This document shows, piece after piece, positions 8,839-17,870 of a DNA stretch of 21,125 bases (within the stretch, counting starts at the first letter, position 1; every line of letters begins with the position of its first letter). Source of the stretch: a virus; IMG/VR virus record IMGVR_UViG_3300011114_000979, positions 1-21,125 of that record. The stretch is one strand, 5' to 3'. Both the position numbers and the translations under genes were made by a program. Under the pieces are notes generated by a model. The model ran no database searches. It had not been told where the DNA came from and saw only the letters and a program-made list of their open reading frames with translations.

Positions 8839-9500
8839 GCGTTCCTCCGCAGGTTGCTGCCGTCGCCGATCTTGGTCACCTCCTCGACGGTAAGGGCCTG
8901 CTTGGCCCCCTCATAAAGCTTGGCCCAGGTCATGACCCGCTCGTCGTTCTTGAGCCAGGTCTCAGCCTGCACCAGGCACTGGTAGAGCAGCAGGTTGGGA
9001 ACGTACTGCGTGGCCCAGTTCGTCTGGTTCTCGGCGCTGAGCAGCGGCGGGATGGCCATGAAGGCCCACTCAAAGGGGTAGGCCTCCCCCGGGGTGGGGG
9101 AGACGATGATGTTGCCGTAGTCGTAGTCGGCGTAGTACTTGGGGGTCCCGGTGACCGCCCGGTCGGGCGCCAGCAGCTGCAGGTAGGTGTAGTCTCGCTG
9201 GTAAAGCGGGGTGCGGTCGGTGAAGGAGCCGGCGGACCCGTTGGTGAAGGTCAGCGAGATGGTCTCGCGCCACCGGTCTGGCTTGGTGTAGACCGCCTGG
9301 CTGGCGACCAGGACCCCGGTGACAACCTCCCGAAAGCCCTGGATCTTCAGGTCCTGGATGATCTGCTTCTCAGCAAGCGTGACCAGACGCGGGCGCTGGG
9401 TGATCCAAGCCGCGTCGTCGGCGCTGTTGTCACCGCGCTCCAGGTAGGACGAGAGGTCCTCCAGCAGCGAGTTGTAGGTCATGACGGCTGGACCACTCAT
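8835..9500 (-). CDS. Head-tail adaptor-like protein, 221 aa
   Basis: The N-terminus NSLLEDLSSYLERGD is followed by ITQRPRLVTLAEKQIIQDLK, then KPDRWRETISL, YYADYDYGNIIVSPTP, YPFEWAFMAIPPLLSAENQT and a helical C-terminus with VPNLLLYQCLVQAETWLKND. I recognise this order from a common phage family placed between head and tail genes and usually described as an adaptor or head-tail connector-type protein. The ATG at 9500 overlaps the TGA of the four-cysteine protein as ATGA. An alternative ATG at 9482 would remove six residues and still keep the conserved part. It probably forms part of the ring under the portal, together with the 354-aa protein upstream; this is inference from family and position. 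Confidence 0.85.
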   Translation of the reverse strand: MSGPAVMTYNSLLEDLSSYLERGDNSADDAAWITQRPRLVTLAEKQIIQDLKIQGFREVVTGVLVASQAVYTKPDRWRETISLTFTNGSAGSFTDRTPLYQRDYTYLQLLAPDRAVTGTPKYYADYDYGNIIVSPTPGEAYPFEWAFMAIPPLLSAENQTNWATQYVPNLLLYQCLVQAETWLKNDERVMTWAKLYEGAKQALTVEEVTKIGDGSNLRRNA

Positions 9501-9808
9501 ACCCCGATGTACTCCCCGTCATCTGTGAGGATGGGTGCGCCGTCGTCGGTGGCCAGCACTCGGTAGGTGGTGTTGGCCACCCCGGTGAGGGGCACGTCGG
9601 GACGCGGGAACTCCAGGTTGATCCGCTCAGGCTGCCGAGCCGGCAGCCGCCAGGGGTCGTACTGGTCCACGCAGCCGTAGACGCAGACGCGCAGGCCCGG
9701 GAAGTTGGGGTCAGCGCGCAGCTCGCCCAGGAACCGCTTGAACTTGCAGCGGTCACAGATGGCGATCGCGATCCCGGTCCGGCGGCCGCCGTGGAGGTAT
9801 CTTGGCAT
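9497..9808 (-). CDS. Four-cysteine (zinc-ribbon-like) phage protein, 103 aa
   Basis: Cysteines 18, 21, 42 and 46 form CDRC and, after PNFPGLRVC, a second pair spaced C-x3-C, so the protein may bind one zinc ion. The second half contains DPWRLPARQPERINLEFPRP and ends ILTDDGEYIGV. This pattern of a small Cys protein followed by a proline-rich tail is common next to adaptor genes in phages; the role is not known. The ATG directly abuts the TAA of the preceding JAB-like gene, and its strong Shine-Dalgarno lies in that gene's last codons. GC content returns to the phage level here: 43 of 60 bases in 9601-9660 are G or C by hand count. Confidence 0.8.
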   Translation of the reverse strand: MPRYLHGGRRTGIAIAICDRCKFKRFLGELRADPNFPGLRVCVYGCVDQYDPWRLPARQPERINLEFPRPDVPLTGVANTTYRVLATDDGAPILTDDGEYIGV

Positions 9809-10615
9809 TTACACAGCCCCTCCTCTAAAATAGCCATCTTTCCTAAGCCTAGAAATAATATCATCTAAATGAGGAACAAGGTCGTCGTCACTCACTGGAG
9901 AATGAAGTCCGAAGTTGTATGGATAATTAGTTGTATGAGACACTCGTCCTTCTTTTAGGAGCCTTAGAAAATTCATCTCAGGTGAAAGACGCTGAGCGAC
10001 ATATTTAGCAGGGTTTGGCACCTCGACATCTAAATAGTCAATAAGTGGTTCTAAAATGTCTTCAACAGCTTTTGGCTTATTTTCAGCGAATAAAGAAAAC
10101 CTACCCAGCTCCTGTCTCAAAACAGCAGGGGATGAATAGTGGTTTCTTAAGGTCGTCATCGACAGCCGATCGCCAGGGGTGTTTGAAATAGCCCCAATAG
10201 ACCCGGCTGGTAGGCCATCAGACCAAGCTGGAAAATCTCCACGAGGCTCTAACGAAAACGTAGACGGAGAAACGGAACCGCCACCTGGATGGTTGTGGAT
10301 GTGAAGCATCGGTTTTCCACTCAGTTCGTAGTTACGATGGTATGGCGGAAAACTAACTTGAGTAGGTAAGTTGTCTGTATGCATCTCCTGCCTATAAAAA
10401 GATGGATACTCTTTTCCGAGAAGACTGAATGGGCGAGAGGCCGCCCATTCTACCGCTGGATTAGACTTGACCGCACTATCGTGGGCGGCTAGTAGATCGA
10501 GCACGGCTTGTTGACTCGGCGCCTCTCTTCCAAGAGTAGACAGCTCTCGTTCAACAACTTGCGACCTGTTTGCGCCGGTAATTATGCGCAAAAATTGTTT
10601 AAGCGCCCCCTCCAT
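9809..10615 (-). CDS. Low-GC accessory gene; candidate JAB/JAMM-like metallopeptidase-fold protein, 268 aa
   Basis: The longer open frame reaching 10906 is only a shadow in the upstream gene. The real start is the ATG at 10615, which overlaps the upstream TAA as TAATG. The product begins MEGALKQFLRIITGANRSQ. A predicted helical N-terminus (1-60) is followed by a beta-rich part, with H105, H107, H109 and P110 in LHIHNHPGG, then S118, S121, D127 (GDFPAWSDG) and GSIGAISN. JAB/JAMM and RadC-type domains use H-x-H-P with a serine and aspartate about 8 and 11 residues later. Here the serine is shifted by one and the aspartate lies further on, so activity is uncertain. The C-terminal third (about 165-268) is helical and unrecognised. 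GC is low (22/60 in 9901-9960, 28/60 in 10381-10440) and A/T-ending codons are common, unlike all neighbours, which indicates recent transfer. The function is unknown; a moron-like role is inferred. Confidence 0.8.
   Translation of the reverse strand: MEGALKQFLRIITGANRSQVVERELSTLGREAPSQQAVLDLLAAHDSAVKSNPAVEWAASRPFSLLGKEYPSFYRQEMHTDNLPTQVSFPPYHRNYELSGKPMLHIHNHPGGGSVSPSTFSLEPRGDFPAWSDGLPAGSIGAISNTPGDRLSMTTLRNHYSSPAVLRQELGRFSLFAENKPKAVEDILEPLIDYLDVEVPNPAKYVAQRLSPEMNFLRLLKEGRVSHTTNYPYNFGLHSPVSDDDLVPHLDDIISRLRKDGYFRGGAV
9817..9823. repeat. Direct repeat copy 1 (CCCCTCC) at insert boundary
   Basis: Seven-base match to 10607-10613. It lies where base composition changes from high to low GC, and it doubles as the core of the Shine-Dalgarno for the next gene. 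Seven bases can match by chance in a purine-rich ribosome-binding context. Confidence 0.5.
9817..9824 (-). promoter_or_regulatory. Ribosome-binding site AGGAGGGG of the four-cysteine gene
   Basis: Read on the minus strand, AGGAGGGG lies eight bases before the ATG at 9808. It falls within the final codons of the upstream low-GC gene and contains one of the two GGAGGGG copies that bracket that gene. Confidence 0.75.
10607..10613. repeat. Direct repeat copy 2 (CCCCTCC) at insert boundary
   Basis: Seven-base match to 9817-9823, immediately after the start codon of the low-GC gene and two bases beyond the upstream stop. High-GC phage sequence resumes just to its right. Confidence 0.5.
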
Positions 10616-11679
10616 TAGCGGGTATACCTGCGTAAATTGGGCTGAATGCGGATGGGCATGTGGTCCTCCTCGGTGCCCATCGCCTGCTTGAGGCCGCTGG
10701 CCGCATCGTTGATCAGGAGCTGATACTCGGCGGCCTCCAGCCCGTGCTTGATCCCAGCCTTGGTCAACCGCAACGCCAGGTTGTCGACGACCGGCTCCAG
10801 CCACCTTTCCGGGAAGTCCAGGGTGTCGGTCAGACGGCCCACGTCCTGCAGGCGCCGGCGGGCGTAGACGATCATGGAGGTGAAGCTGTCGTTGGGCACC
10901 GGCCACAGGGTGATCGTCGGGGCGTCACGCAGGCGCTGGTAGAAGTAGGACAGCGGGTCCCCGGCAAAGGTCTTGTTGGGCATGTTGAGATAGTCGTCGC
11001 GGTTCAGGGAGCCCATCTGGATGTCTGACGGGTTCCAGCCAAACAGCAGCTGGTAGCAGCTCAGGGTGCCCACCGTGGCCCGGATGCGCCAGTATTGGTG
11101 GGGCGAGTTGTTGGTGACGCTGGCCATGACCCACTCGTTGACCGCGGCGTTGGCCAGGAACGGGGCCAAGGCTGTGGTCCAGGTCGTCGCGTCGTCGCTG
11201 AACTCACACGTCAGGGTCAGGGTGGCGCTGGTGGCGGCCGGCAGATAGCCAATCATGCTCAGGGCCACCGGGCTCTCAAAGTCGTAATAGACGTAGCCCA
11301 GCGGGGCGGTCTGGGTGAAGGCGTTGGTCAGCAGCCCGTCAAAGGCGTACTCCAGGTTGCCGCCCGCGGAGCTCGTGGCCAGGGTATAGTCATCAGCCCG
11401 GTTGACCTTGCGCCGCACCGGGTCACTGACCTTGTCGACCACGTTGGAGGGCAGGGTGTAGGCCGGCACCCCAAGGTACAGCGGCACGATGATGGGCTCT
11501 ACCGTCCACAGGGGGATCCCGGACCGCACCACCGTCTGCATGAACAGGTAGAGGTCGTCCTTGGCGGTCTGAACCCCCTCCGCGGTGATCGCGGCGGTCG
11601 GGATCTTCAGCCGGAGAAAGGCCCGCCGGATAACGTCGTCGACGTTGAGGGTGGTGGCGTAGGTGCCTGAGGTGGCCAC
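10615..11679 (-). CDS. Connector/tail-tube-like structural protein with discoidin-like insert, 354 aa
   Basis: Residues 1-95 (helical, DVIRRAFLRLKIP, then WTVEPIIVPLYLGVPAYTLP) and 220-354 (RDDYLNMPNKTFAGDPLSYF, ITLWPVPNDSFTSMIVYARR, FPERWLEPVVDNLALRL) resemble phage head-tail connector or tail-tube-type proteins. Between them, about 100-214, is a beta-rich segment with YAFDGLLTNAFTQTAPLGYV, YYDFESPVALSMIGYL, CEFSDDATTWTTA and YWRIRATVG. That pattern matches an F5/8 type C (discoidin) carbohydrate-binding fold. The start is GTG at 11679, one base after the upstream TGA, with GGTGG before it. The TAA overlaps the start of the low-GC gene. A role at the neck or tail with surface exposure of the insert is inferred. 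Confidence 0.85.
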   Translation of the reverse strand: MATSGTYATTLNVDDVIRRAFLRLKIPTAAITAEGVQTAKDDLYLFMQTVVRSGIPLWTVEPIIVPLYLGVPAYTLPSNVVDKVSDPVRRKVNRADDYTLATSSAGGNLEYAFDGLLTNAFTQTAPLGYVYYDFESPVALSMIGYLPAATSATLTLTCEFSDDATTWTTALAPFLANAAVNEWVMASVTNNSPHQYWRIRATVGTLSCYQLLFGWNPSDIQMGSLNRDDYLNMPNKTFAGDPLSYFYQRLRDAPTITLWPVPNDSFTSMIVYARRRLQDVGRLTDTLDFPERWLEPVVDNLALRLTKAGIKHGLEAAEYQLLINDAASGLKQAMGTEEDHMPIRIQPNLRRYTR

Positions 11680-12044: not shown

Positions 12045-13484
12045 TCAGTCCGCCGCTACGTCCATGGGCGACTCAGGTTCAACATACACCCCATCGGCCA
12101 ATTTTGACATAGGTCTGAGGGCGTCGGTCACCGCCTTGACCACCACGTCGGTGGAGATGGCTGCGGCGCAGACCGACACCCCTTCAGCGTTCACGGGGCA
12201 CTCGTCACCCCCGAAGTGCAGCTTGTGGCAGGGGAACTGTTCGCACCCCTGGGGCTCCAGGGCCACCGTGTTGCGCCAGTGCTTGGTCAGGTTCTCCTGG
12301 CTGGAGTGGCTCAGCAGCACGATCTTGGTGTTGGGCCCGTAGGCACAGGCCCATAGCACCCCAGTCTCGGCCGCCACCAAGATGTCGGCTTTCTGGGCCA
12401 GAGCATAGGAGACCCGAACGTCCTGGTCAAGGTCGTGCTTGACCCGCCGCAGGGCCATGATCCCGGCGATCTGTTCAACCTGCTTGAGCACCTGCACGAT
12501 CAGCTTCTTGTCCCGACTGCCCCCGCCCAGCAGGTGGAACGTGACGCCAGGGAACAGGAGCAGCATCCGAGACAGGGCGATCCCCAGGTAGGGCCAGGTC
12601 TTGTGCTCCGTGGAGCCTGAGAGCGCCCACGCCACGTTGACCCCTGGGGGCAGCAGGGCCTGGGCCCGCTCGTCGGCGGTTGGGTGAAAGCTGACATGCC
12701 CGGGCTCAAAGGTCAGCCCAGTCACCCGGCTTGTCACCTCCTCATAGTTGTGGTTGGCGATGGCATGCCTGGCCTCCTTGGGCCAGTGGAACCAGCCGTT
12801 CTTGGAGCCTGACAGCAGGACCCCCTCGACTGTCTCGTTGAGGAACACCAGCTGCTTGAAGCGCGGGGCAAAGCAGGCCACCATCAGGCCAAAGGAGTCA
12901 TCACCGTAGCGGTGGCGCTCGAACACCAGGAGGCGGTCGATGTGTGGGTTGTACTGCAGCATCTTGCCCGCGTTCTCCGACACCAGGTAGGTGATGTGGC
13001 GCTCTGGATCAGCCTTCTTCAAACGTGACGCGGCGTAGGAGGCCAGCAGGCCGTCCCCAAAGCCCCCGGTGCGGACCACCAGGATGTCGCGTGGCTGCTG
13101 CTCCAGCGGCTCGTAGACTGTCTTGTCGGCAAGCTCGACCGGCAGCTTCAGCAGGGCGGCGTACCAGTGGCTTGGCTTGGCTGGGATCTTCTCCACGTCG
13201 TCAAGGCAGCGCCAGCCGGTCTTCTTCAGGATGAACTGGCCAAACTGCTGTCGGCTGTAGGTGGCCGTGGCGGCCGAAACCGCCACCACCCCGTTGACCG
13301 CCAGCTTGTCCCAGACGTCGTTAAAGATGGCCTCTGGGTCTGGGGCGGTGTACCAGTTTTCACCAAGATAGGCGTGATCCAACTGCCCAGGGGCAAAGTC
13401 CTCAACGGTGTGCGGGGCGTAGAAACCTACGCCCCGCAGCCAGGGTAGTGCGAGCGCGTAGCCCGCGTCTAGGTTGGCGGCCAC
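12045..13484 (-). CDS. GT9-type glycosyltransferase (heptosyltransferase-like) with degenerate methyltransferase-like N-terminus, 479 aa
   Basis: Residues about 133-455 look like a GT-B enzyme of family 9. There is ILVVRTGGFGDGLLASYAAS at the N-terminal nucleotide-sugar fold, VAWALSGSTEHKTWPY and GVTFHLLGGG in the C-terminal fold, and ADILVAAETGVLWACAYG where family members have a D-S/T-G-x-x-H loop. C414, C419, C429 and C439 form a cysteine cluster near the end. Residues 1-110 (DAGYALALPWLRGVGFYAPH, then DHAYLGENWYTAPDPEAIF) resemble the end of a class I SAM-dependent methyltransferase without an intact glycine-rich motif I. The start is GTG, with AGGAGG overlapping the upstream TAA. Family 9 enzymes add heptose or related sugars; the donor and acceptor here are unknown. 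It could modify virion proteins, host surface sugars or DNA bases. The family call is fairly sure, the substrate is not. Confidence 0.85.
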   Translation of the reverse strand: MAANLDAGYALALPWLRGVGFYAPHTVEDFAPGQLDHAYLGENWYTAPDPEAIFNDVWDKLAVNGVVAVSAATATYSRQQFGQFILKKTGWRCLDDVEKIPAKPSHWYAALLKLPVELADKTVYEPLEQQPRDILVVRTGGFGDGLLASYAASRLKKADPERHITYLVSENAGKMLQYNPHIDRLLVFERHRYGDDSFGLMVACFAPRFKQLVFLNETVEGVLLSGSKNGWFHWPKEARHAIANHNYEEVTSRVTGLTFEPGHVSFHPTADERAQALLPPGVNVAWALSGSTEHKTWPYLGIALSRMLLLFPGVTFHLLGGGSRDKKLIVQVLKQVEQIAGIMALRRVKHDLDQDVRVSYALAQKADILVAAETGVLWACAYGPNTKIVLLSHSSQENLTKHWRNTVALEPQGCEQFPCHKLHFGGDECPVNAEGVSVCAAAISTDVVVKAVTDALRPMSKLADGVYVEPESPMDVAAD

Positions 13485-16369: not shown

Positions 16370-17397
16370 CAGCGGGTTCCCTGCATCTGTTTGTCAAACT
16401 CACGATAGCGCTGGATCATGCGCTCACGTTTTACGTCGTCGTCCCAGATGCCCGCCTGCTTCATCGCCTCGATGCGGTGCGGCGTCAGCGGGTTGGGGGC
16501 GGTCGGGGTTGAGCGGCCAGAGGCACCACCGCCCCGCACGGGGGGCCCGCGGCGGCCTTGGGCGGCCCCCTCAAACCGGTGGGGAAGGGCCTCACGCACG
16601 CGGGCGTCGAGCTCCTCCCAATACTCACGGTCCCGCGAGTCCAGGCCCTCGCTGGTCAGCGCCACGTCCAAGCTCGAGACCAAGACTGAGTCGCGGTCCT
16701 GGCCGTTGAGGTTGTACCAGGGCTTGTCCTGCATGAACCGCACGGCGTGGCTGACCAGCTCCGGGTCAACGCCGGGGGCCGGCTGGGGGGCCATCTGTTG
16801 GCGCTGGGGCGGCGCCTGCTGCCGCTGGACGCTGTCGGCCAGCTGAGCCCGGCGGGCCTCGATGCGGCGGGCCTGCTCAACCGCGGCGTCGCGGTCAGCC
16901 AGGGCCTGCGTGGCCAGGGGGCCGTCGCCATTGGCGATGGCGGTCGCGTGCCTGTTCTCGGCCGCCTGAAACTGAGCCCGCACCTGCGCGAACTGGGAGT
17001 CCAGCGCCTCCAGGGTGTTGGTGGCGGTGCCCACCATCTGGCCCTGCAGGGCGGTGGTCAGCTGGGCAACGTGCTGCTCCAGCTGTTGGATGCGCTGCTC
17101 GGCCCGCAGGCGGGCCTGGCGTTGGATGTCGCGCCGCCGGGTGTGGCGGGATTGGCCCGCCCGGGAGAACCGTTCATCCTGGGTGTCATCGTCGTCGTTT
17201 GGGTTTGGCTCGACATCGACGACGCGCTCTCGACGTGGCTCGTCCTGCTCAGCACCCGCCCCAGCACCAGGCTTGGGGGAGGACCCCTGGTCTGAGGCCG
17301 TCTTGGCAGGGGCCTGGTTGAAGAGCTTGACGTCCTCGGTCGTGACGGGGACGTCCCCGCCGCCGACGTCGATCTGGTGCTCTAGGGAGTCGCTCAC
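16369..17397 (-). CDS. Scaffold-like head assembly protein, 342 aa
   Basis: The composition is typical of a scaffold: an acidic, disordered N-terminus (VVDVEPNPNDDDDTQDERFS), a long charged helix with coiled-coil character (about 85-200, including RLRAEQRIQQLEQHVAQL), a glutamine-rich linker (QRQQAPPQRQQMAPQPAPG), and a folded C-terminal part ending RIEAMKQAGIWDDDVKRERM with IQRYREFDKQMQG. Scaffolds of related phages end in similar short basic helices that bind the capsid protein. The start is GTG at 17397, overlapping the TGA of the GroES-like gene as GTGA. It sits two genes upstream of the decoration and capsid genes, the usual place. No protease motif is seen. The scaffold call rests on architecture and position. 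Confidence 0.8.
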   Translation of the reverse strand: MSDSLEHQIDVGGGDVPVTTEDVKLFNQAPAKTASDQGSSPKPGAGAGAEQDEPRRERVVDVEPNPNDDDDTQDERFSRAGQSRHTRRRDIQRQARLRAEQRIQQLEQHVAQLTTALQGQMVGTATNTLEALDSQFAQVRAQFQAAENRHATAIANGDGPLATQALADRDAAVEQARRIEARRAQLADSVQRQQAPPQRQQMAPQPAPGVDPELVSHAVRFMQDKPWYNLNGQDRDSVLVSSLDVALTSEGLDSRDREYWEELDARVREALPHRFEGAAQGRRGPPVRGGGASGRSTPTAPNPLTPHRIEAMKQAGIWDDDVKRERMIQRYREFDKQMQGTR

Positions 17398-17870
17398 GTG
17401 GGCGTCCTCCCCATGACGTAGGCCTTGATCAGGCGCGGGTCGACCCCGGCCTTGACGCGGCCTCGGATCTCGGTGTCCTTGAAGAGGGCAAAGAGTGCCT
17501 TCTCATGCTTGCCGTGCTCCACCTCCCAGCGGTCACCACCGTACAGCGGGATGCGCACGTGCTGGCCAGGCTCGCACCAGGCGCCCTCGACCCAGGGGGC
17601 CATGGTGGTGCGGTTGCGGAAGGCCAGCGGCCCGGTCGCGATGACCTTGGCAACCTGCTGGTTCCAGTATTCGGTGTCAACCGACTCGTCGGCCAGCAGG
17701 ATCCCGCCCTCGGTGGCCTTGCGGGGGGTGCGGATCTGCACCAACACGTCACTGCCGGTGGGCTCAAGCAGTGGGTCGACCGTGGGGAAGGGGTCGTAGT
17801 CCACCTTGCTTGGGAGCTTGAAGGTGGCCTTCAGCCCCGCCAGGTCTAGGGTGCCGGTGTCTGGTGTCAA
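17394..17870 (-). CDS. GroES-like co-chaperonin, 158 aa
   Basis: After a 37-residue extension, residues about 38-130 follow the Cpn10 fold: GSDVLVQIRTPRKATEGGIL at the position of the mobile loop, LADESVDTEYWNQQVAKVIA with TGPLAF, then WVEGAWCEPGQHVRIPLYGG and DRWEVE. Bacterial GroES is about 97 aa; this protein has extra N- and C-terminal segments and an insert (NRTTMAPWVEG). Phage homologues such as T4 gp31 replace or assist GroES in folding the capsid protein through host GroEL, which fits the position just upstream of scaffold and capsid genes. The start is TTG at 17870 with AGGAGG eight bases before it; no better ATG or GTG precedes the conserved part. Interaction with host GroEL is inferred. 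Confidence 0.83.
   Translation of the reverse strand: MTPDTGTLDLAGLKATFKLPSKVDYDPFPTVDPLLEPTGSDVLVQIRTPRKATEGGILLADESVDTEYWNQQVAKVIATGPLAFRNRTTMAPWVEGAWCEPGQHVRIPLYGGDRWEVEHGKHEKALFALFKDTEIRGRVKAGVDPRLIKAYVMGRTPT

Follow-up and report, generated by a model that had tools for sequence, protein, structure and literature searches.

In phages, the presence of free-standing homing endonucleases in the gaps between conserved genes is well established (PMC2988022), and nuclease genes near structural genes are likewise established at the boundaries of genetic exchange (PMC10448857). JAB domains of the RadC and toxin types have, in turn, been put forward as nucleases (PMC5512222, PMC3482391). Here, we describe a single gene with a JAB-like motif that sits in a phage virion operon, at a junction in which homing-endonuclease-like genes occur in related phages.

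A precisely inserted low-GC gene in a virion operon

The DNA analyzed, a 21-kb fragment of a virus record (21,125 nucleotides, referred to as the window), carries genes that form a podovirus-type virion operon. These encode a portal, a GroES-like protein, the capsid, two SU10-type adaptors, and tail and fibre proteins, with some of the roles assigned from position alone. The nearest isolates were the Caulobacter phages RW, RLK, KcrB, and GB2A, along with contig MW202545 (capsid protein 74% identical), and the nearest relative overall was contig L003, with a 91% identical capsid protein and about 50 to 79% identity for most proteins. The GroES-like co-chaperonin within the operon (17,394 to 17,870, minus strand) was kept in L003, RW, MW202545, and Roseobacter phage CRP-901. 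A 479-aa protein (12,045 to 13,484, minus strand), judged by eye to be like family-9 (heptosyl) glycosyltransferases and lacking a Pfam or PHROG match, had a homolog in L003; none was detected in phage RW (L083) or MW202545 (L084).

The inserted gene (9,809 to 10,615, minus strand) encodes 268 aa in 807 bp including the stop, and runs from an ATG at 10,615 to a stop codon at 9,811 to 9,809. Its GC content was 46.7% overall (57.6, 43.5, and 39.0% at codon positions 1, 2, and 3), compared with 64 to 72% in 17 neighbor genes, in which third positions reached 81 to 92%. It was the sole low-GC gene among those in the window. Measured against the rest of the window, codon fit was −2.99 bits per codon for the inserted gene and between −0.99 and −1.40 for each of the others, while codons ending in A or T made up 61% of its total versus 8 to 19% elsewhere in the window. 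The base composition of the gene is foreign, and a 268-codon open frame with such a codon-position pattern is not expected as a product of chance. A low-GC gene amid a high-GC structural operon, as described in the original prediction, was thus borne out; the range of 37 to 47% GC given there was only a local count, and the gene reaches 60% in places.

The gene lies between adaptor A (10,615 to 11,679, minus strand), which has an SU10-adaptor-like C-terminal part and an F5/8C-like insert, and a conserved 103-aa protein (9,497 to 9,808, minus strand). The insert in adaptor A is discoidin-like (F5/8 type C, Pfam E of 0.01), spans residues 104 to 181 approximately, and is unusual for a head-tail adaptor. 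At the left junction, TAATG (10,613 to 10,617, minus strand), the adaptor TAA overlaps the ATG of the inserted gene, and at the right junction, TAAATG (9,806 to 9,811, minus strand), the stop of the inserted gene is followed directly by the ATG with which the 103-aa gene begins. The site is empty in L003, where the adaptor gene ends AGATAATGCCCCGC and its TAA overlaps the ATG of the 103-aa gene. The same junction in the window reads CGCTAATGGAG, then the inserted gene, then GTGTAAATGCCAAG; both neighbors stay in frame, and gene order on both sides is the same in the two contigs. Given the overlap of the two genes in L003, the nearest relative, the window holds a clean one-gene insertion that is precise at both ends and preserves both flanking frames. 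Unoccupied in L003 and in other relatives, the site shows the insertion directly and supports the reading of an accessory gene acquired within a structural operon. GAGGAGG, present at the 3′ end of the inserted gene just upstream of the 103-aa gene ATG and absent in L003, could act as a ribosome-binding site for the 103-aa gene. As for the suggestion that the gene is expressed with the structural operon and has no promoter of its own, operon expression is probable.

The adaptor/103-aa junction in related phages

Loci encoding the 103-aa protein were taken as two sets of 80, from which identical loci were removed before counting, with 2 loci not judgeable. The adaptor and 103-aa genes were adjacent, leaving the junction empty, in 110 of the 130 distinct loci, and the remaining 20 held one ORF between them. 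On reading, all 20 occupants resembled free-standing GIY-YIG or HNH/NUMOD3 homing endonucleases, and many had NUMOD3-like tails. Pfam HNH and NUMOD3 matches exceeded the cut-off in three occupants (L213, L229, and L236), sub-threshold GIY-YIG or HNH matches were seen in four others (L185, L188, L215, and L233), and two that had no Pfam match (L184 and L243) were assigned by eye; later occupants were assigned by eye together with profiles made from junction occupants. Across 713 kb, such occupant-derived profiles missed L243 and identified 24 ORFs, of which 19 lay exactly at the junction, a count biased toward the junction because the profiles were built from its own occupants. Several occupants resemble the window gene in their fit: they begin within the adaptor stop codon and run right up to the next start.

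These comparisons of gene content and sequence indicate that the adaptor/103-aa junction is a homing-endonuclease hotspot, a feature that is new here and was overlooked by the original prediction. The same junction in L010 (about 1690 to 1822) held a short unrelated insertion of about 130 bp. Further along, several kb of variable genes separated the 103-aa gene from the second adaptor in many relatives (L004, L011, L043, L044, L053, L079, and others), and neither the window nor L003 had any there.

A JAB-like motif in a protein with no detected relatives

The protein carries the signature H107-N-H109-P-G-G-G-S-V-S116-P-S-T119 (10,259 to 10,297, minus strand), with H105 two residues upstream, and the whole stretch reads H105-I-H107-N-H109-P-G-G-G-S-V-S-P-S-T-F-S-L-E-P-R-G-D127. 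The residue numbering given previously for H105, H107, H109, S118, S121, and D127 was correct, and P110 was also placed. The HxH(P) metal-binding pair is present as H107-N-H109-P110, and the Ser that follows HxHP is present as S116, which aligned with the Ser that is conserved in the MuF-JAB sequences described below. The zinc-ligand Asp expected three residues after that Ser, the JAMM Asp position, is absent and T119 is found there. D127 (10,235 to 10,237, minus strand), eight residues further on, may be a displaced third metal ligand from its place in the sequence, with the AlphaFold (AF2) model not firm on it. Assignment of the upstream catalytic Glu was alignment dependent: E69 (10,409 to 10,411, minus strand) paired with the invariant JAB-family Glu in alignment A3 and in the L-INS-i alignment, and E31 paired instead in A2.

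When the motif was run as a DNA pattern (HNHPGG-x-S/T-x-S/T-P) against viral contigs, the matches beyond noise were of one protein kind, phage MuF-type head proteins with a JAB domain at the C terminus. Ten aligned MuF-JAB sequences had invariant Glu, HNHPGG, Ser-Pro, and Asp. These sequences were picked with the window motif pattern and the sharing of the motif is therefore partly by construction; the independent point is that HNHPGGxSxSP is the consensus of the MuF-JAB family and that the window protein matches all specified positions. Phage JABs had been placed by the original prediction in assembly proteins of long-tailed phages, but they are not confined to tail assembly: these closest motif matches are C-terminal domains of MuF-type head proteins. 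The proteins from L125 to L161 were diverse MuF-type JAB proteins with a C-terminal THNHPGGxSFSxxD domain, and the four such domains scanned had no Pfam model above cut-off.

Against a JAB profile, the real protein scored 16.9 bits compared with a maximum of 2.3 in 1,000 full shuffles. Against the MuF-JAB profile, 447 of 2,000 shuffles in which the 11-residue motif was kept scored at least as high as the real protein, so it is the motif itself that carries the JAB assignment. Pfam revealed no MuF domain N-terminal to the motif, which is preceded by 106 residues in the 268-aa ORF.

Relatives of the window protein were found neither in family libraries nor in 50,697 phage records or 72,556 plasmids, and scanning viral and genome contigs with short peptides also returned none. 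Pfam, PHROGs, NCBIfam, and PADLOC gave nothing usable, the only matches being two chance-level PHROG matches to the C-terminal third, and a PDB sequence search returned chance matches only. The profile search for homologs and their contexts that had been proposed thus yielded no homolog in which conservation of the histidines could be compared. Several candidates were discarded: a Flavobacterium phage FpV4 ‘peptidase’ (tblastn, E of 4) was a chance alignment without HxH; Stenotrophomonas phage matches to the C-terminal third (E of 4 to 9) were unsupported; and matches in about 1,000 bacterial genomes (E of 0.002 to 0.01 per genome) had in-frame stops or were unrelated. One of these genome matches, in L167, was read as an unrelated OmpA-like ‘GHTDNLP’, and a genome-wide HxHNHPGG pattern gave nearly all noise, with only L101, an Omnitrophica giant protein, looking JAB-like.

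AlphaFold run on the single sequence, without JAB rows in the alignment, gave an unusable model (pLDDT of 37.7). With 35 MuF-JAB rows, residues 60 to 268 reached a mean pLDDT of 63 and a pTM of 0.47, and pLDDT rose to as much as 82 in ten-residue blocks around the motif. VIA matches of this model of residues 60 to 268 were to BubCD (Z of 7.3), a chain of an Rpn8/Rpn11 complex (7.0), AMSH (6.6), and RadC (5.5), with all Z values below 8, and BFVD matches were to viral minor capsid proteins. Foldseek against the PDB had a best E of 0.35 and nothing at an E of 0.001 or lower; the missing match was not counted against the fold. Since the JAB rows drive the AF2 model, whose JAB fold may have been imposed by the alignment, the JAB/MPN matches speak for compatibility and are not proof. 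A resemblance to JAB/MPN proteins was seen only in the model that included the JAB rows. Taken together, the protein has the signature of a known phage JAB domain, with no signal outside the motif, a Thr at the Asp position, and a model built on JAB sequences; its JAB identity, as read from the motif, is plausible but unproven.

Origin of the inserted gene and comparison with known systems

The inserted gene is most likely a mobile gene, delivered by recombination, for a divergent JAB-like protein. The firm result is that one gene recently entered, with precise ends, a homing-endonuclease slot in the virion operon of this podovirus, a relative of Caulobacter phage RW; toward the fuller account that follows we lean somewhat. 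Double-strand-break repair between phages would have brought the gene in, whether it was mobile in its own right or was cargo that underwent co-conversion with a homing endonuclease since lost; the single known copy is compatible with either route. Once in place, it would be translated by coupling to the upstream adaptor stop (TAATG), and its 3′ end would provide the Shine-Dalgarno sequence for the 103-aa gene. The product would be a divergent JAB-like metal binder (H107, H109, and perhaps D127) with helical regions on both sides. Action on nucleic acid appears at least as likely as cleavage of ubiquitin-like conjugates, because every other occupant of the slot resembles a DNA endonuclease and JABs of the RadC and toxin types have been put forward as nucleases.

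It is doubtful, though possible, that HNHPGGGSVSP is coincidental or convergent and that the protein is an orphan with some unrelated fold, encoded by a mobile gene that is perhaps in decay. The lack of similarity outside the motif and of profile matches in the libraries searched would fit this, as would the failure of single-sequence AF2 and the Thr at the Asp position; however, the full HNHPGGxSxSP consensus of an independent JAB family is matched far beyond full shuffles, and the intact 268-codon frame speaks against decay.

A new type of homing endonuclease is unlikely, in which the JAB-like HxH would form the nuclease active site, helical parts at both termini would bind DNA, and cutting of the empty junction region in co-infecting phages would copy the gene. 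The gene shares its junction with the 20 endonuclease-like occupants, is near them in size (268 aa versus about 170 to 235 aa), and, like them, fits tightly between frames and has the lower GC often seen in them; the nuclease proposals for RadC-type and toxin JABs (PMC5512222, PMC3482391) point the same way. Against this, similarity to GIY-YIG or HNH enzymes was not found (these two families were checked with their own profiles and other nuclease families only through Pfam): 256 of 1,000 shuffles scored as high as the window protein with the GIY-YIG profile and 41 of 1,000 with the HNH profile, which is not convincing. Pfam also detected neither NUMOD nor any other DNA-binding motif, the protein lacks the metal Asp, and the single known copy gives no sign of spread. 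We know of no JAB domain that acts as a homing endonuclease. The N terminus was also considered as a decayed HNH domain and rejected (a weak resemblance to one HNH group gave a best pairwise p of 0.033 over the set, and p was 0.27 with a broader Mob/HNH profile), as was kinship with the GIY-YIG occupants, to which there was no similarity. That the JAB-like metal center is the catalytic domain of a homing endonuclease, in the slot because it homes there itself, is distinctly improbable.

The original prediction raised possible activity against host peptide tags, ubiquitin-like conjugates, or defense proteins, for which support was not found. Such JAMM peptidase cargo, removing or cleaving ubiquitin-like or peptide modifications, for instance to counter conjugation-based defense, is improbable. 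It would agree with the HxHP signature and with the deubiquitinases and BubCD among the VIA matches of the JAB-row model, but the canonical Asp is replaced by Thr, the motif is nearest to MuF/toxin-type JABs, and toxin JAB clades are described as lacking conservation of the ubiquitin-tail tunnel residues (PMC3482391). In addition, there was no PADLOC match, and no ubiquitin-like or defense gene was recognized in the window, itself a fragment. Assembly of low-GC DNA of another organism into the phage contig is highly improbable, for all that this is a single copy on a single metagenomic contig with an abrupt composition shift, given that the insert is bounded exactly by start and stop codons with neighbors in frame, the flanking order is as in L003, and inserts occur at the same junction in other phages.

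If an orphan with a JAB-like center replaces homing endonucleases here, the long-standing nuclease proposal for RadC- and toxin-type JABs would gain a defined target for a direct test, namely the adaptor/103-aa junction in a relative that has no insert there. A true JAB-fold homing nuclease would be the first known to us and would directly support that proposal. If the gene is cargo instead, a homing-endonuclease hotspot in a virion operon would be importing non-nuclease genes.

Among known systems, RadC, Prok-JAB, and JAMM (MPN+) proteins have the HxHP signature in common with the window protein and, provided that the model holds, the fold; the window protein differs in that it lacks Asp at S+3, has an uncertain Glu, and matches no Pfam or NCBIfam model. 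Compared with the C-terminal JAB domain of MuF proteins, it is a 268-aa product of its own gene, lacks a MuF domain, and has Thr for the invariant Asp, a longer post-motif loop, and no similarity outside the motif, but it shares the HNHPGGxSxSP core (with the upstream Glu of the E...HNHPGGxSxSP pattern dependent on the alignment), a predicted helical region after that core, and a phage structural context. HEG islands with cargo (PMC10448857) offer nuclease genes near structural genes that could deliver such a gene, although no endonuclease gene is left beside it in the window contig. Unlike the free-standing mob HNH and seg GIY-YIG endonucleases of T4 (PMC2988022), the protein has no GIY-YIG, HNH, or NUMOD signature; like them, it is encoded by a single intergenic ORF with a tight fit to the flanking start and stop codons, and it sits at a junction that ORFs resembling free-standing homing endonucleases occupy in related phages and that is empty in other relatives.
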